Of a DNA stretch of 64,000 nt, positions 38,185-60,613 are shown one piece after another. The notes below the pieces were generated by a model. It had not been told where the DNA came from. It ran no database searches and saw nothing but the letters and a program-made list of their open reading frames with translations. This stretch comes from Herminiimonas sp. (lineage in GTDB: Bacteria > Pseudomonadota > Gammaproteobacteria > Burkholderiales > Burkholderiaceae_D): the NCBI GenBank assembly GCA_028292665.1, contig JAQGLW010000113.1, positions 1 through 64,000 on the forward strand, in the 5' to 3' direction. Numbering within the stretch: the stretch's first letter is position 1; each line of letters starts with the position of its first letter. Made by a program: the position numbers and the translations under genes.

Positions 38185-38754
38185 CTAGGATTTCTCGCCC
38201 GGTGTCGGTACGAACGGGAAAGTGCCGAACATATTCTTGGTCTGATTTTGCATCTGCTCCTGCATCTGGATGAACAGGCTCTTGCTTTGTTCGATGTAGT
38301 TGCTCATCATGCCTTGCATCATCGGTCCTTGCACGCTCATGAACTGGGCCCACATCTCCGGGCTGAAAGGCTTGCCTTCATACAGGCCCTTCGAGTTTTC
38401 GGTCAGCTTGTTCTGGATATCGATGAAAGCCTGGATATTCTTTTCCAGATACGACCCCATCATGCCCTGCATCGCATGGCCGTAGTAACGGATGATCTGC
38501 GACAACGCGCCGCTGGAAAACATCGGCGAACCGTTCGCCTCTTCTTCCAGGATGATCTGCAGCAGGATGCTGCGTGTCAGATCTTCCTCGGTCTTGGCAT
38601 CGACCACAGTGAATTCCTCGCTGCTCATTACCAGCTGTTTTACATCGCTGAGCGTAATGTACGAACTGGTTTGCGTATCGTACAGACGACGGTTCGGATA
38701 CTTCTTAATCAAGCGCTCAGACATCTTTTTTGCACTATTCATCTGAAATTCCAT
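38185..38754 (-). CDS. phaR: Polyhydroxyalkanoate synthesis repressor PhaR
   Basis: A 189-residue regulator of PHA storage. The N-terminal DNA-binding domain has the family signature KKYPNRRLYDTQTSSYITL (about 17-35). The middle is a PHB-accumulation regulatory domain, and the C-terminus is methionine/glutamine-rich (MMQGMMSNY, QMQEQMQNQ), with a role in binding PHA granules. PhaR represses phasin genes and itself until PHA granules titrate it. It lies 196 bp downstream of phaC on the same strand with its own likely promoter. ATGs at 38742 and 38724 are alternative starts. Confidence 0.95.
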   Translation of the reverse strand: MEFQMNSAKKMSERLIKKYPNRRLYDTQTSSYITLSDVKQLVMSSEEFTVVDAKTEEDLTRSILLQIILEEEANGSPMFSSGALSQIIRYYGHAMQGMMGSYLEKNIQAFIDIQNKLTENSKGLYEGKPFSPEMWAQFMSVQGPMMQGMMSNYIEQSKSLFIQMQEQMQNQTKNMFGTFPFVPTPGEKS

Positions 38755-38950: not shown

Positions 38951-40663
38951 TCAATCCGCTTTCACCCTGACGTAGCGCCCTGGAGCCGGTTCGATCGGCT
39001 TGAATTTGGCATTGCCATATTTGCGCGGCGCGCCGACTTCCTGGCCGGCGTGTTTGGCCAGGAAAGCGGCCCACTCGGGCCACCAGCTGCCCGGGTGCTC
39101 GGTCGCCGTGGCCATCCATTCGTCGGCATTGACAGCGGTTTTGGTGTTGGTCCAATAGCTGCGCTTGTTCTTTGCGGGCGAATTGATCACCCCTGCGATA
39201 TGGCCGGATGCGCCGAGCACGAAGCGGTTCAGGCCCGGTTTTTTGGGATTGAGCATGGCGACCGATGTATAAGCGGCAGTCCAGGTTACGATATGGTCTT
39301 CGCGGGAACCGTAGATGAAGGTAGGCGCGCTGATCTTGCGGAGATCGATTTTTTCGCCGGCAACCGTCAGCTTGCCCGGTACTTTGAGATTATCTTCGAG
39401 GTACATGTTGCGCAGGTACCAGCAAAACATCGAGCCGGGTAAATTGGTGCTGTCCGCGTTCCAGTACAACAAATCGAACGGCGGCGGATTTTCCCCTTTC
39501 AGGTAATTCGACTCCACGTAATTCCATATCAGATCATTGGGGCGCAGGCTGGCAAAAGCGGCGGTAAAATCGCGGCCCGACATCAATCCGCCGCGCCCGA
39601 TTTCCTGCTCGCGTTTCAGCACTTGCGCTTCATCGATGAATACATCGAGAACGCCGGTATCGGAAAAATCCAGCAAAGTCGTCAACAGCGTCAAACTGGC
39701 GACCGGTTTCTCGCCGCGCGCGAAGAGCATCGCCAGCGCGATTGCAAGCATGGTGCCGCCAATGCAGAAACCGAGCGCATTGATCTGGTCCTGACCGGAT
39801 ATCTGCTGCACGACGCTGATCGCCTTGATCGTCCCATCCTGAATGTAATCATCCCAGGTGGCGTGGCCCATTGATGCATCCGGATTGAGCCATGACACAA
39901 GGAATACCGTGTGTCCTTGTTCGACCGCATAACGCACGAGCGAATTACTCGGCTGCAAATCAAGGATGTAATATTTGTTGATGCAGGGAGGCAGCAGCAG
40001 CAGCGGGCGCTGGTAGACGGTTTTTGTCAGCGGCTTGTATTGAATCAGCTGGAAAAGTTCGTTTTCGAAGACAACCGCGCCTTCCGTCGTCGCGACATTG
40101 CGGCCGACATCAAAAGCCGATTCGTCGGTTTGAGAGATGCGGCCTTTCTGCATGTCGGCCAGCATGTGGATGACACCCTTCGCCAGGCTTTCGCCCTTGG
40201 TCTCGATAATTTTTTGCTGCGCTTCGGGATTGGTCACTAAAAAATTGGCGGGAGACATCGCATCGACCGTCTGCTGCACGGCGAAACGGATTTTCTGTTT
40301 TACTTTGGGAGGCGCTTGCACTGCATCCGCCATCGACATCAGAAAACGTGCATTGAGCAGGTAAGTCGCCGCATTGAATGCGTAAAGCGAATTTGAATGC
40401 CATGCTGGTGCGTTAAAGCGTTTATCCGCGATCGCCGGCGCTTTCGAAGCCAGCATGTCTTGCCACAAGGCGGACATCTGCTCCATGTAGTCGTTCTGCA
40501 ACCTGGCGATGGCGGCAGGGTCGAGAGTGACGGCCATTTCGCCGGAGCCGGCAGCGGCCGGACCGGCTGCCATCTGCGGCTGAAACCAGGCTTGCCATGC
40601 TTTCGGATCGGAAAGCTGCGACATCCAGGCCGGGGACATTGCTTCAGGAGTAGGCGTATTCAT
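38951..40663 (-). CDS. phaC: Class I poly(3-hydroxyalkanoate) synthase
   Basis: A 570-residue enzyme that polymerises hydroxyacyl-CoA to PHA at the granule surface. The lipase-like box GFCIGG carries the catalytic Cys300. The catalytic Asp lies in GSREDHIVTW and the His in LGASGHIAGVINSP. The PhaC_N domain (about 90-260) includes LLLLPPCINKYYILDL. The length fits class I (Cupriavidus-type, about 590). The usual phaA and phaB are not next to it, so precursors must come from elsewhere. phaR follows on the same strand. Confidence 0.97.
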   Translation of the reverse strand: MNTPTPEAMSPAWMSQLSDPKAWQAWFQPQMAAGPAAAGSGEMAVTLDPAAIARLQNDYMEQMSALWQDMLASKAPAIADKRFNAPAWHSNSLYAFNAATYLLNARFLMSMADAVQAPPKVKQKIRFAVQQTVDAMSPANFLVTNPEAQQKIIETKGESLAKGVIHMLADMQKGRISQTDESAFDVGRNVATTEGAVVFENELFQLIQYKPLTKTVYQRPLLLLPPCINKYYILDLQPSNSLVRYAVEQGHTVFLVSWLNPDASMGHATWDDYIQDGTIKAISVVQQISGQDQINALGFCIGGTMLAIALAMLFARGEKPVASLTLLTTLLDFSDTGVLDVFIDEAQVLKREQEIGRGGLMSGRDFTAAFASLRPNDLIWNYVESNYLKGENPPPFDLLYWNADSTNLPGSMFCWYLRNMYLEDNLKVPGKLTVAGEKIDLRKISAPTFIYGSREDHIVTWTAAYTSVAMLNPKKPGLNRFVLGASGHIAGVINSPAKNKRSYWTNTKTAVNADEWMATATEHPGSWWPEWAAFLAKHAGQEVGAPRKYGNAKFKPIEPAPGRYVRVKAD

Positions 40664-53467: not shown

Positions 53468-54664
53468 TCACAGACCCAGAATCATTTGGGTGATGATGTT
53501 CTTTTGAATCTCGTTGGAACCGCCGTAAATCGAGGTCTTGCGATAGTTGAAATAATACGAAGCAAGCGGCGCCGCATCGTCGTTCTGCGTCACGCTGTGA
53601 TCATGTTCGCCTTCGAGATATGCGGTGTCGAACGGCATGCCGTAAGGACCAATCGCTTCGACCATCAATTCGGTGAGCGTCTGCTGGATTTCAGTGCCCT
53701 TGACCTTCAGCATCGATGCTTCCGGTCCGGGACCGCGCCTGGCGCTGTCCTGTGAAATCACGCGCAGGACAGTGACTTCCAGCGCCATCAATTCGATTTC
53801 GAGATTGGCGACCTTGGCGGAGAACATGGAATCTTCCAGCAAAGGCCTGCCGTTTTTTCTCTGATCGGTTGCAATGCGCTTCAAAAACTGCAATTCGCGC
53901 TTGGCGCGGCCGACAGCGGCGATATTGGTGCGCTCGTGCCCCAGCAGATATTTGGCGTAGGTCCAACCCTTGTTTTCTTCGCCGATCAGGTTCTCGGCCG
54001 GCACTTTTACATTATCGAAAAAGACTTCGTTGACCTCATGCTCTTCGTCCAGCATGATGATCGGACGAACCGTAATGCCGGGCGTGTGCATGTCGATCAG
54101 CAGGAACGAAATACCCTCCTGTTTGCGTGCGCCGGTATCGGTACGCACCAGGCAAAATATCATGTCGGCATGCTGACCCAGCGTGGTCCAGGTCTTCTGG
54201 CCATTGACGATGTAGTGATCGCCCTGGCGCTCGGCGCGTGTCTTCAGCGACGCCAGATCGGATCCGGAACCCGGTTCCGAATATCCCTGGCACCACCAGT
54301 CGTCGCAGTTCAGGATACGCGGCAGGTAATAGCGTTTCTGGGCTTCGTTACCGAACGCCATGATGACCGGCGCCACCATGTTGACGCCGAATGGCAGAAT
54401 CGGCGGCGTGCCCGCGCTGGCACATTCTTCTTCCCATATATGGCGCTGCACCGGAGACCAGCCGGTACCGCCGTATTCCACCGGCCACCCGGTACCGACC
54501 CAGCCCTGCCGGGCAACGATTTTATGCCAGCGAACGTAGTCTTCTTTCGACAGGCGCTTGTGATGTAAAACCTTGTGTTGAAGATCTTTGGGCAGATTCT
54601 CTTTGAGATAGGCGCGTACGGTGTCGCGGAAGGCCAAATCTTCCGCCGTGTAATTCAAATCCAT
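53468..54664 (-). CDS. Acyl-CoA dehydrogenase, FadE-type partner
   Basis: A 398-residue ACAD that heads the minus-strand operon. I choose the ATG at 54664 (MDLNYTAEDLAF), with AGGAGA before it, not the frame's earlier start. The FAD segment is QGYSEPGSGSDLASLKT and QKTWTTLGQHADM. The C-terminal motif is RKTSIYGGSNEIQKNII: the usual catalytic Glu in IYEGT is Gly, as in the non-catalytic partner of mixed-tetramer ACADs. Together with the downstream ACAD gene (10 bp gap) it probably forms a heteromer. Confidence 0.92.
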   Translation of the reverse strand: MDLNYTAEDLAFRDTVRAYLKENLPKDLQHKVLHHKRLSKEDYVRWHKIVARQGWVGTGWPVEYGGTGWSPVQRHIWEEECASAGTPPILPFGVNMVAPVIMAFGNEAQKRYYLPRILNCDDWWCQGYSEPGSGSDLASLKTRAERQGDHYIVNGQKTWTTLGQHADMIFCLVRTDTGARKQEGISFLLIDMHTPGITVRPIIMLDEEHEVNEVFFDNVKVPAENLIGEENKGWTYAKYLLGHERTNIAAVGRAKRELQFLKRIATDQRKNGRPLLEDSMFSAKVANLEIELMALEVTVLRVISQDSARRGPGPEASMLKVKGTEIQQTLTELMVEAIGPYGMPFDTAYLEGEHDHSVTQNDDAAPLASYYFNYRKTSIYGGSNEIQKNIITQMILGL

Positions 54665-54693
54665 GCTGTCTCCTTCTTTTATGCCAGCCAAAA

Positions 54694-54719
54694 AGCACGA
54701 CCGTTCATAATTTATTATA
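54694..54719 (-). promoter_or_regulatory. ACAD-operon promoter -10 and operator
   Basis: On the minus strand TATAAT (54719-54714) is followed 6 nt later by TGAACGGTCGTGCT (54707-54694), 30 bp before the ACAD start. Ten of its first 11 bases match the phaR palindrome TGAACGGACGTTCA. An operator sitting on the transcription start would give repression. Confidence 0.6.
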
Positions 54720-54901
54720 CAGCGGATTTTAAAAGGAAGACGATGTTTACATTGCTTGAGGCAGATGCTTATTTCCGTCGCAAGGCCACTGCTGCCCGCA
54801 ACCCGGCTTCAGCCCCTTCCCGAAACAGGGAACGAGGAGTTGGCACAACTCATCGATGCATGTCAGCCATGAACATGGCCGGCACTATCTCGATGCCGGA
54901 A

Positions 54902-55237
54902 TCAGTCCGGCAAATATAAAGGATTCGGCGCGACATAAGTCATTACTTCCCGATCAAGTACGCCAGGCGGTGCGATCCGGTTTAATTTGAATGATCTCGT
55001 GATCGGGCTATTGAAATCCCAGGCAAATGCTTTGTCGCCCACCACGAATTTAATGATTTCGCCGCCCTGGACGTTCACGTATTTGGTATCGGGCTTGATC
55101 GTCACAGTACGTTGAGCCGCTGATGCAGGCACCGGATTACCAAAAAAATCGACACCATGCATCACAGCACCTGAAGGCAGACTTGCGGTGGACAACATAA
55201 ACGCAAGAGCAATCGAAAAACGTGATTTCAGTTTCAT
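54902..55237 (-). CDS. CzcE-like periplasmic protein
   Basis: A 111-residue secreted protein. The signal peptide is MKLKSRFSIALAFMLSTASLPSGA. The mature part reads MHGVDFFGNPVPASAAQRTVTIKPDTKYVNVQGGEIIKFVVGDKAFAWDF, which resembles the CzcE family, a copper-binding periplasmic protein of Cupriavidus. His26 and similar residues could bind metal. No czc efflux genes lie beside it. GAGGACTG precedes the ATG. The role in metal response is inference. Confidence 0.75.
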   Translation of the reverse strand: MKLKSRFSIALAFMLSTASLPSGAVMHGVDFFGNPVPASAAQRTVTIKPDTKYVNVQGGEIIKFVVGDKAFAWDFNSPITRSFKLNRIAPPGVLDREVMTYVAPNPLYLPD

Positions 55238-55299
55238 GACAGTCCTCGATTAAAAACGATGAATTTATATTGAAGTCATCTCCTGCGTGCCGGGGCTTA

Positions 55300-55629
55300 T
55301 CAATGCAGAAAACCAAGCTGGCTTTGTTCATCATCCCGTTTGACCGGTTTTGGTTTTCCCTCGGCATCGCTAAAACGCAATTTTGCGCGTCTATCTCCCA
55401 TCAAATCCCGTAATTTTCGAATGGTCACGCCTGAAACATCATGCATTCGAATCAAGAGCTTCGCGCCGACCGGTGTTCGTCGATTCCTGATTTTACTTAT
55501 GGCCGACGGCGATACTTCCAGCATGCGTGCCAGTGCTGCATCGCTCCTCAATCCCGTATGTCTGATCAAGGTATCGAGCAGGTAATCGGGGTTGTAACCT
55601 TCTGGCTGTGTCGGTGCCCGTTGAGCCAT
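55300..55629 (-). CDS. Helix-turn-helix regulator, small
   Basis: A 109-residue protein with a lambda-repressor-like HTH (about 15-65): LLDTLIRHTGLRSDAALARMLEVSPSAISKIRNRRTPVGAKLLIRMHDVSG. The C-terminal tail is basic, then acidic. I choose the ATG at 55629; the frame opens at 55653. It lies upstream of the czcE-like gene on the same strand (62 bp), so it could regulate it. The target is unknown. Confidence 0.8.
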   Translation of the reverse strand: MAQRAPTQPEGYNPDYLLDTLIRHTGLRSDAALARMLEVSPSAISKIRNRRTPVGAKLLIRMHDVSGVTIRKLRDLMGDRRAKLRFSDAEGKPKPVKRDDEQSQLGFLH

Positions 55630-55901
55630 TGTTTTCTCAAAGGTAAGCCACAAACTGTGTCGCTCATATGGTAGTTGACACCTTAATCACATTTAAATTC
55701 CCGATACCGGCCGGACTTCGTTCGGGGCAACGCGTCAAGTATTTCGCGGCCAGGCAGATTGCAGGGAGGAAGCATCAAGGGTACACGTCTATTTTCTGCA
55801 TCATGTTATAACCCGGATCGGAAACCAGAATATGCACAGCTGGAAACTGGAAGATATCAAAAGCATTGCAACGGACAGACAGCCGCGCCGGGCGTCAGGC
55901 A

Positions 55902-55963
55902 TAAAAAAGCCCGCGAACCTTGCGGTTGCGGGCTAAATCCATCCTTAGGAGGGTGGAGGAGAC
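55902..55963 (-). ncRNA. Candidate ~62-nt small RNA with CCUCC motifs
   Basis: The minus strand has a promoter (TATAGT at 55975-55970 and TTGCGC at 55998-55993, 17 bp apart) directly followed by a short unit ending in a strong terminator. The predicted transcript starts near 55963. It contains CTCCTCC and CCCTCC, which can pair with ribosome-binding sites, then a terminator hairpin. No frame is present. There is no known family I can name. The start point is estimated as 7 nt after the -10 box. Confidence 0.55.
55903..55934 (-). terminator. Rho-independent terminator of the candidate sRNA
   Basis: On the minus strand AGCCCGC (55934-55928) pairs with GCGGGCT (55914-55908), extended by AACC/GGTT around a 4-nt loop, then TTTTTT (55908-55903). 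A textbook terminator, with no gene in front of it other than the candidate sRNA. Confidence 0.85.
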
Positions 55964-55969
55964 GATTCC

Positions 55970-55998
55970 ACTATAGAACATGGAATGGTGCAGCGCAA
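55970..55998 (-). promoter_or_regulatory. Promoter of the candidate sRNA
   Basis: TTGCGC (55998-55993) and TATAGT (55975-55970) on the minus strand with 17 bp between. The -10 matches consensus at five of six positions, the -35 at three. Confidence 0.5.
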
Positions 55999-56779
55999 TA
56001 CGTAAAAATACGGTATGACTACGATGCAATGAAAAAATCTTCACAAAGCTTTATCGATGCGGACTCGTCTCTTTTCACATGTTCGGGAAGATAGATTGAC
56101 AACCTGTAACGCAATACCCACCTTACATCTATTTGCTGCATGCAAATATTTTCAATGTGCGCTGACTAAATCGTGAAATGCGCGAATATTGGTAAACAAA
56201 GCCAAAAATTGTCAGCTGAAACCAAACGTACAAGCGCTAAAAAGTGTCAGTCGGCGCGATAAAAGATGATGCAATTTCTATCCATCACGCACCGATTCTG
56301 CGCGTCTCCTGCAACTACAAAGCATTTTGAGTATGCGTTCGCTGCTTGAATGTTCTGGTACGGGTCTTGCATTTCTTCACAGACACTTACCAGAATGGTC
56401 GAAATATGGAATTCCTTATCGTAACTATTTGCGTCGCCTTAATCCTTGCAACTGTCAAAGTGCGACGGTCACTTAAATTGCAAGGCTTTTACAAGATTTC
56501 TCACCTCAATGCCCGTTCGACGGCAAGAAGGTGGACCGAGATCAACCGACATCTTTGAAATTGAATTCGCAGCCCAGCCTTCAACGAAGATGTGCTGTTC
56601 ATTGCAGCTAGCCAAGCCATCACGGGGACTTTTCGTATTTTTACCTCGTAGTGCATCTTGCATGCGTACCGGTTAATGAAAGACGCTCCGGCGGCGAAGC
56701 ACAGCATTGTATTTGGATGCACCAAGGAACTCTAACTCTCCCACTTGTCCAATTATCAAAGGGGGACAGGAGGCATGAT
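55999..56779. other. Gene-poor A/T-richer stretch
   Basis: About 780 bp with no confident gene. A frame at 56406-56558 (+) would encode a 50-residue protein with one hydrophobic segment (MEFLIVTICVALILATVKV) and a basic tail, but it has no good ribosome-binding site. Base composition is lower in G/C than the core genes, like the rest of 54.7-57.6 kb. Confidence 0.4.
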
Positions 56780-57007
56780 ATGGATGTGCTATTGAAAGCA
56801 ACCGAGACTCTTTGGCAGCGGTTGCGCGAAATCGCTCTGGATGACGCAACCGTAATGAATGCGTTAATGACGGCAGAGCATGCGTGCTTAAGCAGAGAGC
56901 ATACGGCCGTTGCATTAGCTCTTTCCCTGGCCATGGAAAAGCAGGAACTGCTTAAAAAGAACGGTAATACGAGAACAAGAGAGTTCTCTGAAACTGATAT
57001 TGTTTAA
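56780..57007 (+). CDS. Small hypothetical protein with a strong ribosome-binding site
   Basis: A 75-residue helical protein (MDVLLKATETLWQRLREIALDDATVMNALMTAEHACLSREHTAVALALSLAMEK type). AGGAGG lies 8 nt before the ATG at 56780, much stronger than for any other frame here. I do not recognise it. It has no signal peptide. Opposite in direction to the next small gene. Confidence 0.65.
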   Translation: MDVLLKATETLWQRLREIALDDATVMNALMTAEHACLSREHTAVALALSLAMEKQELLKKNGNTRTREFSETDIV

Positions 57008-57074
57008 TCTGCAGTAATCGCTTCTCCCGCAGGCATACCTTTTTTCTTTCAAATGGCGGCAAGGTATGGCAAGT

Positions 57075-57293
57075 TCATTTGCTGCCTAAAGCGGTGGTTT
57101 GCTGCGATTCTATTTTCTCCATTGCCTTTTCCAGCACAACAATCCTTTCCAATAAAATTCTACGACTGATGGTTTCGACCGCAGGCATAAGAGGCTCGAC
57201 TTCAGCCTCTTTGGCTTCGCTTTTCATTCGTTCAATCTTTATTTTCAGTGCCTTTACGCGACGTCGCTCCATCCATTGCTCTATCCAGTTCAT
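57075..57293 (-). CDS. Small coiled-coil hypothetical protein
   Basis: A 72-residue, charged, helical protein (MNWIEQWMERRRVKALKIKI..., heptad-like Leu/Ile spacing, ending QQTTALGSK). GGAGGAAGTC precedes the ATG, supporting a real gene. No family recognised. It faces the 56780 gene. Confidence 0.6.
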   Translation of the reverse strand: MNWIEQWMERRRVKALKIKIERMKSEAKEAEVEPLMPAVETISRRILLERIVVLEKAMEKIESQQTTALGSK

Positions 57294-57341
57294 GACTTCC
57301 TCCCTGATGTCTGATATGCATTATGTTGTAATTCTACCCGT

Positions 57342-57605
57342 TTGGCGCATGGCATCACATTTCAACTAATCAGAGCCTGCCGCACGTCTCTTTGGCTCCG
57401 ACAACTTGAGGCCGCAGAGAGATATGGCTTACCCGCCGCCTATATCGAAAGTATCGCGCATCTTGATGCCCCAATAATGCCAGTCAATGGGCTCGCCAAT
57501 GTTTTTCATATCACTCCTTCAAGCGATGCCTTCAATGAGTCGGGGCACCAGACAGGCAGGCGAAGGTTTACTGGAGAGAACGCGGGTTTTAAGAGGATAT
57601 TATGA
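57342..57605 (+). pseudogene. Possible remnant of a gamma-glutamylcyclotransferase-like gene
   Basis: The frame contains LEAAERYGLPAAYIESIAHLDA, which resembles the C-terminal helix of gamma-glutamylcyclotransferase (GGCT/AIG2) proteins. The N-terminal part of that family is absent: a stop lies 30 bp upstream. The following 50 residues look random. If correct, only the tail of an old gene is left. Weak evidence. Confidence 0.25.
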
Positions 57606-57625
57606 GATGGGATAAAACGGATGGA

Positions 57626-57718
57626 TGGTGCCCGAGACCGGAATTGAACCGGTACGCCCCTTTTCAGGTAAGCGGCGGATTTTAAGTCCGCTGTGTCTAC
57701 CAATTTCACCACTCGGGC
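57626..57718 (-). tRNA. tRNA-Leu (anticodon UAA)
   Basis: The minus strand gives a class II tRNA with a long variable arm: acceptor GCCCGAG/CTCGGGC, anticodon stem GCGGA/TCCGC around CTTAAAA (anticodon TAA), variable arm, T-arm CCGGTTCAATTCCGG, and an encoded CCA. Last of three tRNA genes in a row. Confidence 0.95.
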
Positions 57719-57778
57719 ATAGTGCGATTTTAAAGCAAGACGCCAATAAAAAAAGCGCCGCGGCGCTTTTTTAAAAAC

Positions 57779-57852
57779 TGGAGGCGGGGGTCGGGATCGA
57801 ACCGGCGTAAACGGCTTTGCAGGCCGCTGCATAACCACTTTGCTACCCCGCC
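57779..57852 (-). tRNA. tRNA-Cys (anticodon GCA)
   Basis: Minus-strand cloverleaf: acceptor GGCGGGG/CCCCGCC, anticodon stem GCGGC/GCCGT around CTGCAAA (anticodon GCA), T-arm GCCGGTTCGATCCCG, encoded CCA. Between tRNA-Gly and tRNA-Leu. Confidence 0.95.
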
Positions 57853-57977
57853 AAGGGTGCGTATTGTAACCGCGAAATCAAAATCGTGCTGCTTCCGAAA
57901 ACTCTGACGGTCGAATACTCCGACACTAATTTTACCAATAAAAAAAGGAAGCCTTGTGAGCTTCCCTTTCTGAATTT

Positions 57978-58053
57978 TGGAGCGGGAGAAGAGTCTCGAA
58001 CTCTCGACCTCAACCTTGGCAAGGTTGCGCTCTACCAACTGAGCTACTCCCGC
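57978..58053 (-). tRNA. tRNA-Gly (anticodon GCC)
   Basis: Minus-strand cloverleaf: acceptor GCGGGAG/CTCCCGC, D-arm AGCTCAGTTGGTAGAGC, anticodon stem CAACC/GGTTG around TTGCCAA (anticodon GCC), T-arm GAGAGTTCGAGACTC, encoded CCA. First of three tRNA genes after pgsA. Confidence 0.95.
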
Positions 58054-58105
58054 ATCGACAGAGAAGCGCCATTATAGATGATCCATACTCTTTGTCAAGC
58101 GCACA

Positions 58106-58690
58106 CTAAGGCAGGTGCCCTGCATTCGCCTTGATCAAAGGCCACGCTTTGCGCAGATAATAAAACATCGACCATACCGTCAGCACCGCAGCCACGCCCA
58201 ATAACCACTGTCCCCAAAAGCGGGTATCAATCATGCCGAACACGGTGCCGTAGTAGAGCAGCATCGGTATCGCGATCATTTGTGCGGTGGTCTTGATTTT
58301 GCCGATTGAACTGACGGCGACCGATTTCGATGCGCCGATTTGCGCCATCCATTCGCGTAGTGCAGAAATCGCGATTTCTCTTCCGATGATAATGAATGCA
58401 ACCATCGCGTTGACCCGATCGAGCTGCACCAACACCAACAGCGCGCCTGCCACCATCAGCTTGTCGGCGACAGGATCGAGAAAAGCGCCGAACGCGGAAG
58501 TTTCATTCCATCGCCGCGCGAGAAAACCATCGAACCAATCGGTGATGGCGGCAATGATGAAAATAGCTGTGGATGCCACGCCTTTTTCGAACGGAGAAAG
58601 CCACGTATCAGGCAGATAAAATACGCCGACCACCAGCGGGATCAGTGCAACGCGCAACCATGTGAGCAAAATCGGAATATTAAATGGCAT
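58106..58690 (-). CDS. pgsA: CDP-diacylglycerol-glycerol-3-phosphate 3-phosphatidyltransferase
   Basis: A 194-residue inner-membrane enzyme that makes phosphatidylglycerol-phosphate. The CDP-alcohol phosphotransferase motif is complete: D-W-F-D-G-F-L-A-R...G-A-F-L-D-P-V-A-D (about 50-75). Several transmembrane segments surround it. The length is normal (about 185). It lies between uvrC and the tRNA genes, typical for betaproteobacteria. Confidence 0.96.
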   Translation of the reverse strand: MPFNIPILLTWLRVALIPLVVGVFYLPDTWLSPFEKGVASTAIFIIAAITDWFDGFLARRWNETSAFGAFLDPVADKLMVAGALLVLVQLDRVNAMVAFIIIGREIAISALREWMAQIGASKSVAVSSIGKIKTTAQMIAIPMLLYYGTVFGMIDTRFWGQWLLGVAAVLTVWSMFYYLRKAWPLIKANAGHLP

Positions 58691-58759
58691 AAATAAGGCT
58701 TTTATTTTTTACGTGCTTGTTCATCTGAATATCGCACGGTTTGCAATTATCTGCTTAAT

Positions 58760-60613
58760 TTAATGCAATTGTTTGTAAATGTCTTCAGCCAATTGCCTTG
58801 AGATGCCTTCGACCGAGGCCAGATCGTCCACACTGGCGTCGACCACGCCGCGCAATCCGCCGAAGCGCGCCAGCAGCTTCTGGCGCCGCTTTGCGCCGAT
58901 GCCTTCGATTTCTTCCAGCCGCGACGTTTGGCGCGCTTTGGCTCGTTTGGCGCGCATCCCCGTGATCGCGAAACGGTGCGCCTCATCGCGAATCTGTGCA
59001 ATCAGCATCAGCGCAGCGGATTCCTTGCCTAACTCTTGCGGAAGACGGGCGTCTGCAAAAATAAGCGTCTCCAATCCGACTTTACGGCCCTCGCCTTTCG
59101 CGACACCGACGATCAGACCGATATCGAGCCCCAGTTCGGTGAATACCTGCCTGGCCATTTCGACCTGTCCCTTGCCGCCGTCGATCAATACGATATCGGG
59201 CATCACGCCGTCCCCATTCGCGACTTTTTCATAGCGGCGCATCAGCACCTGGCGCATTGCCGCATAGTCGTCGCCCGGCGTAATGTCGTTGATGTTGTAG
59301 CGCCGATACTCGCCGTTCTGCATTGCATGATGATGGAACACGACGCAGGATGCCTGGGTCGCTTCGCCCTGGGTATGGCTAATGTCGAAGCACTCGACCC
59401 GCAGCGTGTCGACGTCGGTGATTTCGATGCCAAGCATCTCGACCAGAGCGCGGGTCCTCGATTGCTGCGAACCCTGCTCCGACAGCAAGCGCGCCAATGC
59501 GATTTCCGCCCCCTTGTGCGCCATCTCCAGCCACTGCCGGCGCTGTTCCTGCGGCTGAAACACGAGATTGATGCGATGGCCGCATTGTTCCATCAGTGCC
59601 AGCATCAACTCGGGCTCATTCAATTCGAGGTTCAGAATCAGCATGCCCGGAATAAATTTATCGATGTAATGCTGCGCGAGGAAAGCTTTCAGCACTTCCG
59701 CTTCGATCACCTCGTCTTCAGCAAATGCGCCGTCCACATGCACCGGGAAATACGCACGATCGCCAAGATGCCGCCCGCCCCTTACCATTGCGAGATTGAC
59801 GCAGGCACGACCGCCCTGCACGATCACCGCAATGATATCGATGTCGGCATCGCCGACGGTTTCCATGCTTTGCTGGTGCAGTATGCGCGACAGTGCCGTG
59901 ATCTGATTGCGTACCGCAGCGGCCTGTTCGAACTTCAATTCCGTTGCGAATGCATGCATCTTTGCTTCCAGCGATTCCAGCAATTCGGTCTGTCGTCCCC
60001 GCAAAAACCTGGCCGCATTTTCCACGTCGTTCAAATAGTCTTCGCTGGAAATGAAATTGACGCACGGCGCGCTGCAGCGATGAATCTGATGCAGCAGGCA
60101 AGGCCGCGTGCGATTGGCGAATACCGAATCCTCACAGGTGCGCAATAGAAAAACCTTTTGCAGAATCTGCATCGATTCCTTTACAGCCCACACGCTCGGG
60201 AATGGTCCGAAATACTGATTTTTCTTGTCCACTGCACCGCGGTAGTACGCCATGCGCGGAAATGCCTGTCCGGTGATCTTCAGGTACGGATACGACTTGT
60301 CGTCGCGGAACAGGATGTTGTAGCGCGGCTGCAGCGTCTTGATCAGGTTGTTTTCAAGCAGCAGCGCTTCAGCCTCGCTGCGCGTTACCGTAGTTTCCAT
60401 GCGCGCAATGCGCTCCACCATCATTGCGATGCGCGGACTGGTCAGTGTCTTTTGAAAATAACTGGACACGCGTTTCTTCAGGTCGCGCGCCTTGCCGACG
60501 TACAGCACATTGTTGTCGGCGTCGAAATAGCGATAGACGCCCGGCAAGTGCGGCAGTTTTGCGACGGTTTCTAAAATGGCCGCGCGCGGATCGGAAACAT
60601 CGGGTTCAGACAT
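58760..60613 (-). CDS. uvrC: Excinuclease ABC subunit C
   Basis: A 617-residue nucleotide-excision-repair nuclease. The N-terminal GIY-YIG domain is [29 protein letters not shown] (about 25-55). The UVR (UvrB-binding) segment lies near 210-245, the RNase-H-like 5' nuclease domain follows ([28 protein letters not shown]), and helix-hairpin-helix repeats end the protein ([32 protein letters not shown]). Length typical. Confidence 0.97.

Follow-up and report, generated by a model that had tools for sequence, protein, structure and literature searches.

A predicted multicopy anti-Shine-Dalgarno small RNA in Herminiimonas sp., its candidate link to carbon storage and a putative family of opposing anti-sRNAs

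In this study, we propose that a short unit on the minus strand of a Herminiimonas sp. contig (JAQGLW010000113.1, positions 1 to 64,000, the whole stretch of DNA analyzed and hereafter called the window) is best read overall as a multicopy anti-Shine-Dalgarno sRNA with a link to carbon storage and with dedicated anti-sRNAs acting against it. Judged by its sequence, the window RNA is very likely a real sRNA gene of a known betaproteobacterial family, and taken alone it is one more copy of that described family. The anti-sRNA family (hereafter sponges), its linkage to the sRNA genes and a PhbF-type promoter box are, as far as we searched, new within the known class of sponge-controlled sRNAs. 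We consider it quite probable that the window sRNA is both a member of the anti-Shine-Dalgarno family and the partner of a sponge acting in trans.

The sRNA gene of the window, its family and its candidate targets

A sequence-only reading of the window had described a promoter leading into a unit of ~62 nt that ends in a strong terminator. This arrangement is borne out on the minus strand (TTGCGC, 17 nt, TATAGT, and a final U6), the transcript itself being predicted. The unit and its nearest neighbors are as follows:

55903 to 55964, minus strand: predicted sRNA of ~62 nt, an RF02278-type double-hairpin RNA (RF02278 match at 55901-55964)
55993 to 55998, minus strand: -35 hexamer TTGCGC, read directly (TATTGC invariant in the 7-genus alignment)
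55970 to 55975, minus strand: -10 hexamer TATAGT, read directly, with a 17-nt spacer to the -35 (TATA.T invariant in 7/7)
about 55964, minus strand: predicted transcription start
55955 to 55963, minus strand: 5' seed GUCUCCUCC, predicted to be unpaired and anti-Shine-Dalgarno (fold; conservation in 25 aligned copies)
55937 to 55957, minus strand: hairpin 1 (UCCA..UGGA), containing the second CCUCC (fold; covariation)
55903 to 55934, minus strand: intrinsic terminator, bulged stem plus U6 with the U-run at 55908-55903 (fold; compensatory changes in the stem)
55300 to 55653, minus strand: helix-turn-helix (HTH) protein gene (HTH_3 21.5 bits, below the cut-off of 23)
56651 to 57007, plus strand: reading frame with an unassigned ORF, the nearest protein-like ORF on that side of the sRNA

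The two CCUCC stretches that had been noticed in the RNA can both be read in CUCCUCCACCCUCC. In the predicted fold, an unpaired 5' end is followed by a small hairpin and then by a strong terminator with a bulge; the first two CCs of the seed are open and its last bases lie inside hairpin 1. The minimum free energy of the fold is -26.2 kcal/mol against a shuffle mean of -14.3 (z -4.95), and a slightly longer piece reaches -28.2 (z -3.54). The description of the surroundings as gene-poor, with no gene between promoter and terminator, is fair, the nearest protein-like ORFs being the last two listed above; an ORF of 111 aa with a TTG start (55759-56094) overlaps the sRNA on the opposite strand. 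Between 50000 and 62000 a consensus scan finds 5 promoter-like sites versus 8.6 in shuffles, and a simple scan 14 terminator-like sites versus 13.2. Neither list contains the promoter or terminator of the sRNA, TTGCGC agreeing with TTGACA at 3/6 positions and the terminator stem being bulged. As these counts are at chance level and the scans miss the unit, the case for an sRNA gene rests on conservation.

The promoter-terminator pair, whose conservation had been put forward as a test, is indeed kept in relatives. When the window unit is aligned with six relatives (7 genera), TATTGC, TATA.T and GTCTCCTCCA are invariant and the hairpin loops vary. Across 25 aligned copies GTCT of the seed is invariant and CCTC nearly so, both partners have changed in 6 of the 11 predicted pairs, and one pair of hairpin 1 has turned from C-G to U-A on both sides in 8/25 copies.

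At gathering scores, Rfam returns only tRNAs in the window; a relaxed search on 201 bases around the unit led to RF02278 (Betaproteobacteria toxic small RNA; 49.6 bits, E 1.9e-9), of which model positions 1-64 of 64 with both hairpins are covered. Two further traits of this family, a UGUCUCCUCC-type unpaired 5' end and an intrinsic terminator, are present, CGUCUCCUCC being unpaired through CUCC. The score is 0.4 bits short of the gathering score of 50. Since two paralogues (on C92 and C190; 90% identical to the window copy over 81-82 nt) score 52.1 bits and 5/6 promoter-type relatives pass the cut-off, we take the window copy to be a diverged member that narrowly misses the cut-off. The next Rfam match is NmsRb with 27.4 bits (cut-off 52), and the suhB/mmgR model reaches only 16.5 bits (E 0.3). 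The alphaproteobacterial cuckoo RNAs (CCUCCUCCC) were considered and rejected, no such model being among the 9 matches listed up to E 5. The covariance-model search for homologues that had been recommended places RF02278 at E<=0.001 in 134/145 family genomes (126 over the cut-off, up to 21 copies per genome) and in 0/14 control genomes. Our own genome holds 12 copies at this threshold, 4 over the cut-off and 8 more at 37-50 bits. A more permissive setting, used on our own genome, matched 11/14 controls, none over the cut-off, which means that weak matches say little. The element would accordingly stand alone as a gene, its product being a trans-acting sRNA of ~62 nt, and belong to a set of about twelve RF02278-type paralogues. 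Family, promoter, terminator and seed conservation can all be read from the DNA, and we hold with high confidence that the window element is a diverged RF02278 member with anti-Shine-Dalgarno action, the repression being attributed to it on the strength of its relatives.

Four other units in the genome (C27:11939, C129:1708, C149:60014 and C147:8205) have a similar terminator and GGUGGAUU, lack UGUCUCC and have a common upstream GTTCATGT-CTGTTAATG; they may form a sub-family that uses a different seed.

The seed GUCUCCUCC is complementary to GGAGGAGAC, and we propose that base pairing of the open 5' end to ribosome binding sites of the GGAGGAGAC type blocks translation, mainly of nutrient-uptake mRNAs. 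In our own genome, GGAGGAGAC stands 3-14 nt before an ATG at 7 places versus 2 for the reversed pattern. Two of the seven are the antisense of sRNA copies, three head transport genes (SBP_bac_1, an NMT1-type binding protein and MFS_1), and the remaining two precede no gene-like ORF (6 and 47 aa). The enrichment is weak evidence because AGGAG is the general Shine-Dalgarno core. Duplexes of the sRNA at the three transport-gene sites reach -20.7 to -23.7 kcal/mol, compared to -9.4 to -11.8 for shuffles. These transporter genes fit the published picture. In the accessible text on double-hairpin RNAs, CU-rich unpaired stretches are predicted to lie over the ribosome binding sites of genes for carbon and amino-acid transport, and growth is slower when NcS27 is overexpressed (PMC5688073). 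For S17S, the accessible text gives direct repression of BP2158, effects on 32 transporter-related genes or operons and hardly any toxicity (PMC11722255). Growth inhibition of E. coli upon overexpression is reported for the RF02278 family. The suggestion that a stand-alone sRNA masks Shine-Dalgarno sites with its CU-rich part is thus supported as the best reading, transcription of the window RNA, its use of Hfq and its repression of targets being presumed by analogy with its relatives.

A second RNA family complementary to the sRNA

The first sponge, a neighbor of the sRNA at C27:18674, came to notice through the similarity of its terminator to the query. It has the layout AAAAAAAUCCAUCUC-GAUA-GAGGUGAGGAGACAAGG followed by a terminator. 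Its AAAUCCAUC and GAGGAGACA are complements of both conserved sRNA parts, the 5' seed (GUCUCC) and the GGAUUU end, and AAAUCC...hairpin...GGAGACA as a whole corresponds to the sRNA head in reverse complement. Relatives were collected by DNA search and a 16-sequence model was then built, which at E<=0.001 gives 88 matches in 60/392 family genomes and 18/44 genera, with up to five per genome. We examined 77 of these, leaving out 11 near-identical ones of genus g28. Five were judged false by eye (L259, L260, L263, L266 and L277, terminators only), which leaves 72 in 16 genera as the set for promoter scores, start codons and box counts. Three sponges lie in our own genome:

L040:10788-10858 (own C27): sponge-type RNA gene, double-hairpin sRNA 47 nt away
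C26:153-222: sponge-type RNA gene
C190:36564-36627: sponge-type RNA gene, double-hairpin sRNA 93 nt away

No credible sponge outside the family was found among 399 genomes of the order searched with the model, the filters of which lose weak matches. Besides our own genome and G027 this search gave three matches in other families (E 1.8e-4 to 6.4e-4), which we rejected as terminators without GGAGAC. A pattern scan of contigs returned 31 stretches, the credible ones being those titled Noviherbaspirillum, Herminiimonas and Oxalobacteraceae and the rest chance-like. Within the openly readable literature searched, the sponge family is apparently undescribed.

The sponges appear to be independent transcription units with a predicted promoter and terminator. 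The sigma-70 promoter upstream has a mean score of 8.23 (shuffles 6.01, reverse strand 4.37), and scores of at least 8 are reached on the sponge strand in 52/72 and on the reverse strand in 7/72, on which grounds we rejected the possibility that the sponge is an sRNA of the opposite strand. Some units deviate: L247 (G015), L220 (G060) and L222 (G078) have two copies or near-copies of the anti-seed, and L226 (G118) has retained promoter and terminator without any anti-seed.

A double-hairpin sRNA lies within 600 nt of 48/77 examined matches and within 200 nt of 46/77, spread over 11 genera (32 genomes). The nearest one is on the same strand downstream (23), on the same strand upstream (17) or convergent (8). 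In this table the weakest 7/65 sRNA rows (<24 bits) and 9 second matches are left out, and sRNA matches overlapping the sponge are skipped. As a genome of 4-5 Mb holds about six sRNAs, we estimate that chance would provide well under one neighbor in 77. At the other 29/77 matches the locus contains no sRNA; 24 of these belong to the 72 true sponges. The locus of the window copy itself holds no sponge; one is found 45 nt downstream of its closest relative, which belongs to G016 (L283). The median number of sRNA copies is 10 where a genome carries a sponge (n=27) versus 4.5 where it does not (n=118), and at the genus level the numbers are 6.75 (n=14) versus 3.0 (n=30; p 0.0015).

The window sRNA and the three sponges of its own genome form predicted duplexes of -32.2, -27.2 and -35.1 kcal/mol. 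Seed complementarity is seen in the 51 linked pairs tested (51 of 58 sRNA rows), with a mean of -28.6 kcal/mol and z < -2 versus shuffles in 50/51. Swapped partners pair almost as well (-27.4; cognate better in 36/51), so that pair-specific coevolution within these 51 pairs is weak. As the members were gathered by similarity, and complementarity was thus partly selected, and as swapped pairs are nearly equal, the pairing energy is no independent proof. We propose that the window sRNA is titrated in trans by the anti-sRNAs on C27, C26 and C190. Such titration probably takes place; the existence of the sponges, their linkage to sibling sRNAs and their complementarity can be read directly. For the family as a whole, action on double-hairpin sRNAs is likely.

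It is unlikely that the sponge is instead a further sRNA with its own mRNA targets, or that it is a short ORF or the leader of an mRNA, GGAGACA being the ribosome binding site. GGAGACA does resemble such a site, a start codon follows 2-12 nt behind it in 10/72, and the A-rich 5' ends could serve Hfq binding; yet the other 62/72 run without such a start codon directly into the terminator, an sRNA within 200 nt on either side in 46/77 fits no leader, and the match extends beyond the seed to the other half of the sRNA head. A sponge that acts on the double-hairpin sRNAs is the reading retained here. The two families would form a natural sRNA/anti-sRNA pair in which gene order and copy number vary over many genera, and which lends itself to a test of sRNA thresholds.

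The PhbF-type box and carbon storage

PhbF of Herbaspirillum binds TG[N]TGC[N]3GCAA, as determined by footprint (PMC3206438, accessible text). The window contains the following related elements:

55986 to 55998, plus strand: TGGTGCAGCGCAA, an exact TG[N]TGC[N]3GCAA match overlapping the -35; putative repressor site
38185 to 38754, minus strand: phaR/phbF homologue, candidate regulator (PHB_acc_N 107.7 bits, PHB_acc 118.3 bits)
38951 to 40663, minus strand: phaC, PHB synthase (PhaC_N 221 bits), showing that the strain has PHB genes

The phaR/phbF homologue is the sole PF07879 match in our own genome and lies 17 kb from the sRNA, next to phaC. Among seven window-type promoters, TGCN3GCAA is present in 6/7 and the full PhbF motif in 3/7, with varying inner bases; the promoter in L012 has TGCN3GCG instead. 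Over the whole window TGCN3GCAA is at chance level (21 versus 23 expected). Upstream of the sponges TGCN3GCA occurs in 30/72, compared to 2/72 in a control stretch 200-290 nt upstream and 8 in the 90 nt downstream, and it ranks first among 64 palindromic triplets, the next having 15. The linked sRNAs have it in 10/51 in the 90 nt upstream and in 8/51 downstream. Given this rarity at the linked sRNAs, the box is a mark of the sponges and of promoters of the window type rather than of the sRNA family at large. Many linked sRNAs have a recurring ATATCTGATATCAC-ACAATAAAGCGGAC-like stretch upstream of the -10 that is absent from the window-type promoter and possibly belongs to another regulator.

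The same box bears on a further explanation of the sponge-like units, namely that they have no function and arose by copying or decay, as inverted duplicates or terminator repeats. An inverted copy would indeed have this appearance, given the self-complementarity of hairpin 1; the terminators of both RNAs are similar, L226 lacks the anti-seed and 5/77 matches were false. Against this, the anti-seed family is kept in 16 genera, and its units have promoters with 17-nt spacing on one strand and the box upstream in the proportion given above, which makes this reading very improbable.

We propose that PHB-sensing PhbF/PhaR binds over the -35 and represses the sRNA promoter, and that PHB accumulation would switch the sRNA on and shut down further uptake. 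Control of the window sRNA by PhbF is somewhat favored, the motif being given by sequence and the control deduced from it. The wider model, in which dedicated anti-sRNA genes oppose the double-hairpin sRNAs, both arms are wired to PhbF/PhaR and stored carbon sets the balance that throttles uptake, has in our view about an even chance of being correct. If functional, the box would provide a physiological signal, carbon storage, for a so-called toxic sRNA, a point left open in the accessible text of the cited literature.

Genomic neighborhood and comparison with known systems

By blastn against 24 loci (L002-L025, picked by RNA match), the window stretch 54001-59000 aligns only at 55887-56016, i.e., promoter and RNA, plus one HTH-gene stretch in L003. 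Conserved gene order was sought in these 24 loci as support for orthology, and no common flanking gene was found except HTH homologues (L003, L016). Either the RNA moves or its neighborhood does. HTH homologues also stand beside double-hairpin sRNAs in L252, L275 and L281, as in L003 and L016 with varying orientation. It is highly improbable that the unit is a cis element of the HTH gene, which lies 250 nt downstream, whether as a leader containing an attenuator or simply as a terminator. Although this gene is on the same strand and has homologues near several other copies, the position of these relative to the RNA is not constant (upstream, downstream or divergent), neighbors vary between copies and genera, similarity to relatives ends at the terminator and the 5' seed is conserved beyond a leader's needs. 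The neighborhood further contains a CzcE-type metal-resistance protein (54902-55237, 89.5 bits) and, on the minus strand, tRNA-Leu, -Cys and -Gly (57626-58098) behind a perfect TTGACA-16-TATAAT promoter.

As a trans-acting sRNA, the window RNA resembles ncS03, ncS05, ncS27/bdhR1 and ncS62 (RF02278) of Burkholderia cenocepacia, which are described in the accessible text as multicopy RNAs of ~62 nt with two hairpins and a CU-rich unpaired 5' end (PMC5688073). Those occur in three to five copies per genome (PMC5688073), whereas there are about twelve here, in addition to the PhbF-type box in the window-type promoter and a sponge family in the genome. S17S of Bordetella pertussis has a closely similar CU-rich 5' end and terminator and represses by pairing at ribosome binding sites (PMC11722255, accessible text). 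S17S arises through cleavage of a longer RNA by RNase E (PMC11722255), whereas our predicted promoter places the start at the seed, and a term search of the accessible text finds no sponge (PMC11722255). NmsR/NgncR_162-163 of Neisseria (RF02877) are likewise CU-rich sibling sRNAs, and they regulate metabolism. They form a tandem pair, and the window RNA matches their model weakly, below its cut-off (see above); the accessible Neisseria text speaks of a sponge only for GcvB (PMC9973317). In the case of Campylobacter CJnc190/CJnc180 the antagonist is a cis-encoded antisense RNA, whereas the sponge is a separate gene with its own predicted promoter.

As far as our searches show, the closest case in function to sponge-controlled double-hairpin sRNAs is that of Caulobacter CrfA, a sponge sRNA that titrates the SisA-D (alphaR8) siblings with their anti-Shine-Dalgarno core in a carbon response (PMC12559287, accessible text). 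CrfA and SisA-D belong to another bacterial class and are likened by function, whereas the sponges described here often lie less than 200 nt from an sRNA and number up to five per genome. By analogy with CrfA-SisA (PMC12559287), the control of anti-Shine-Dalgarno siblings by a sponge in a carbon response may have arisen more than once.
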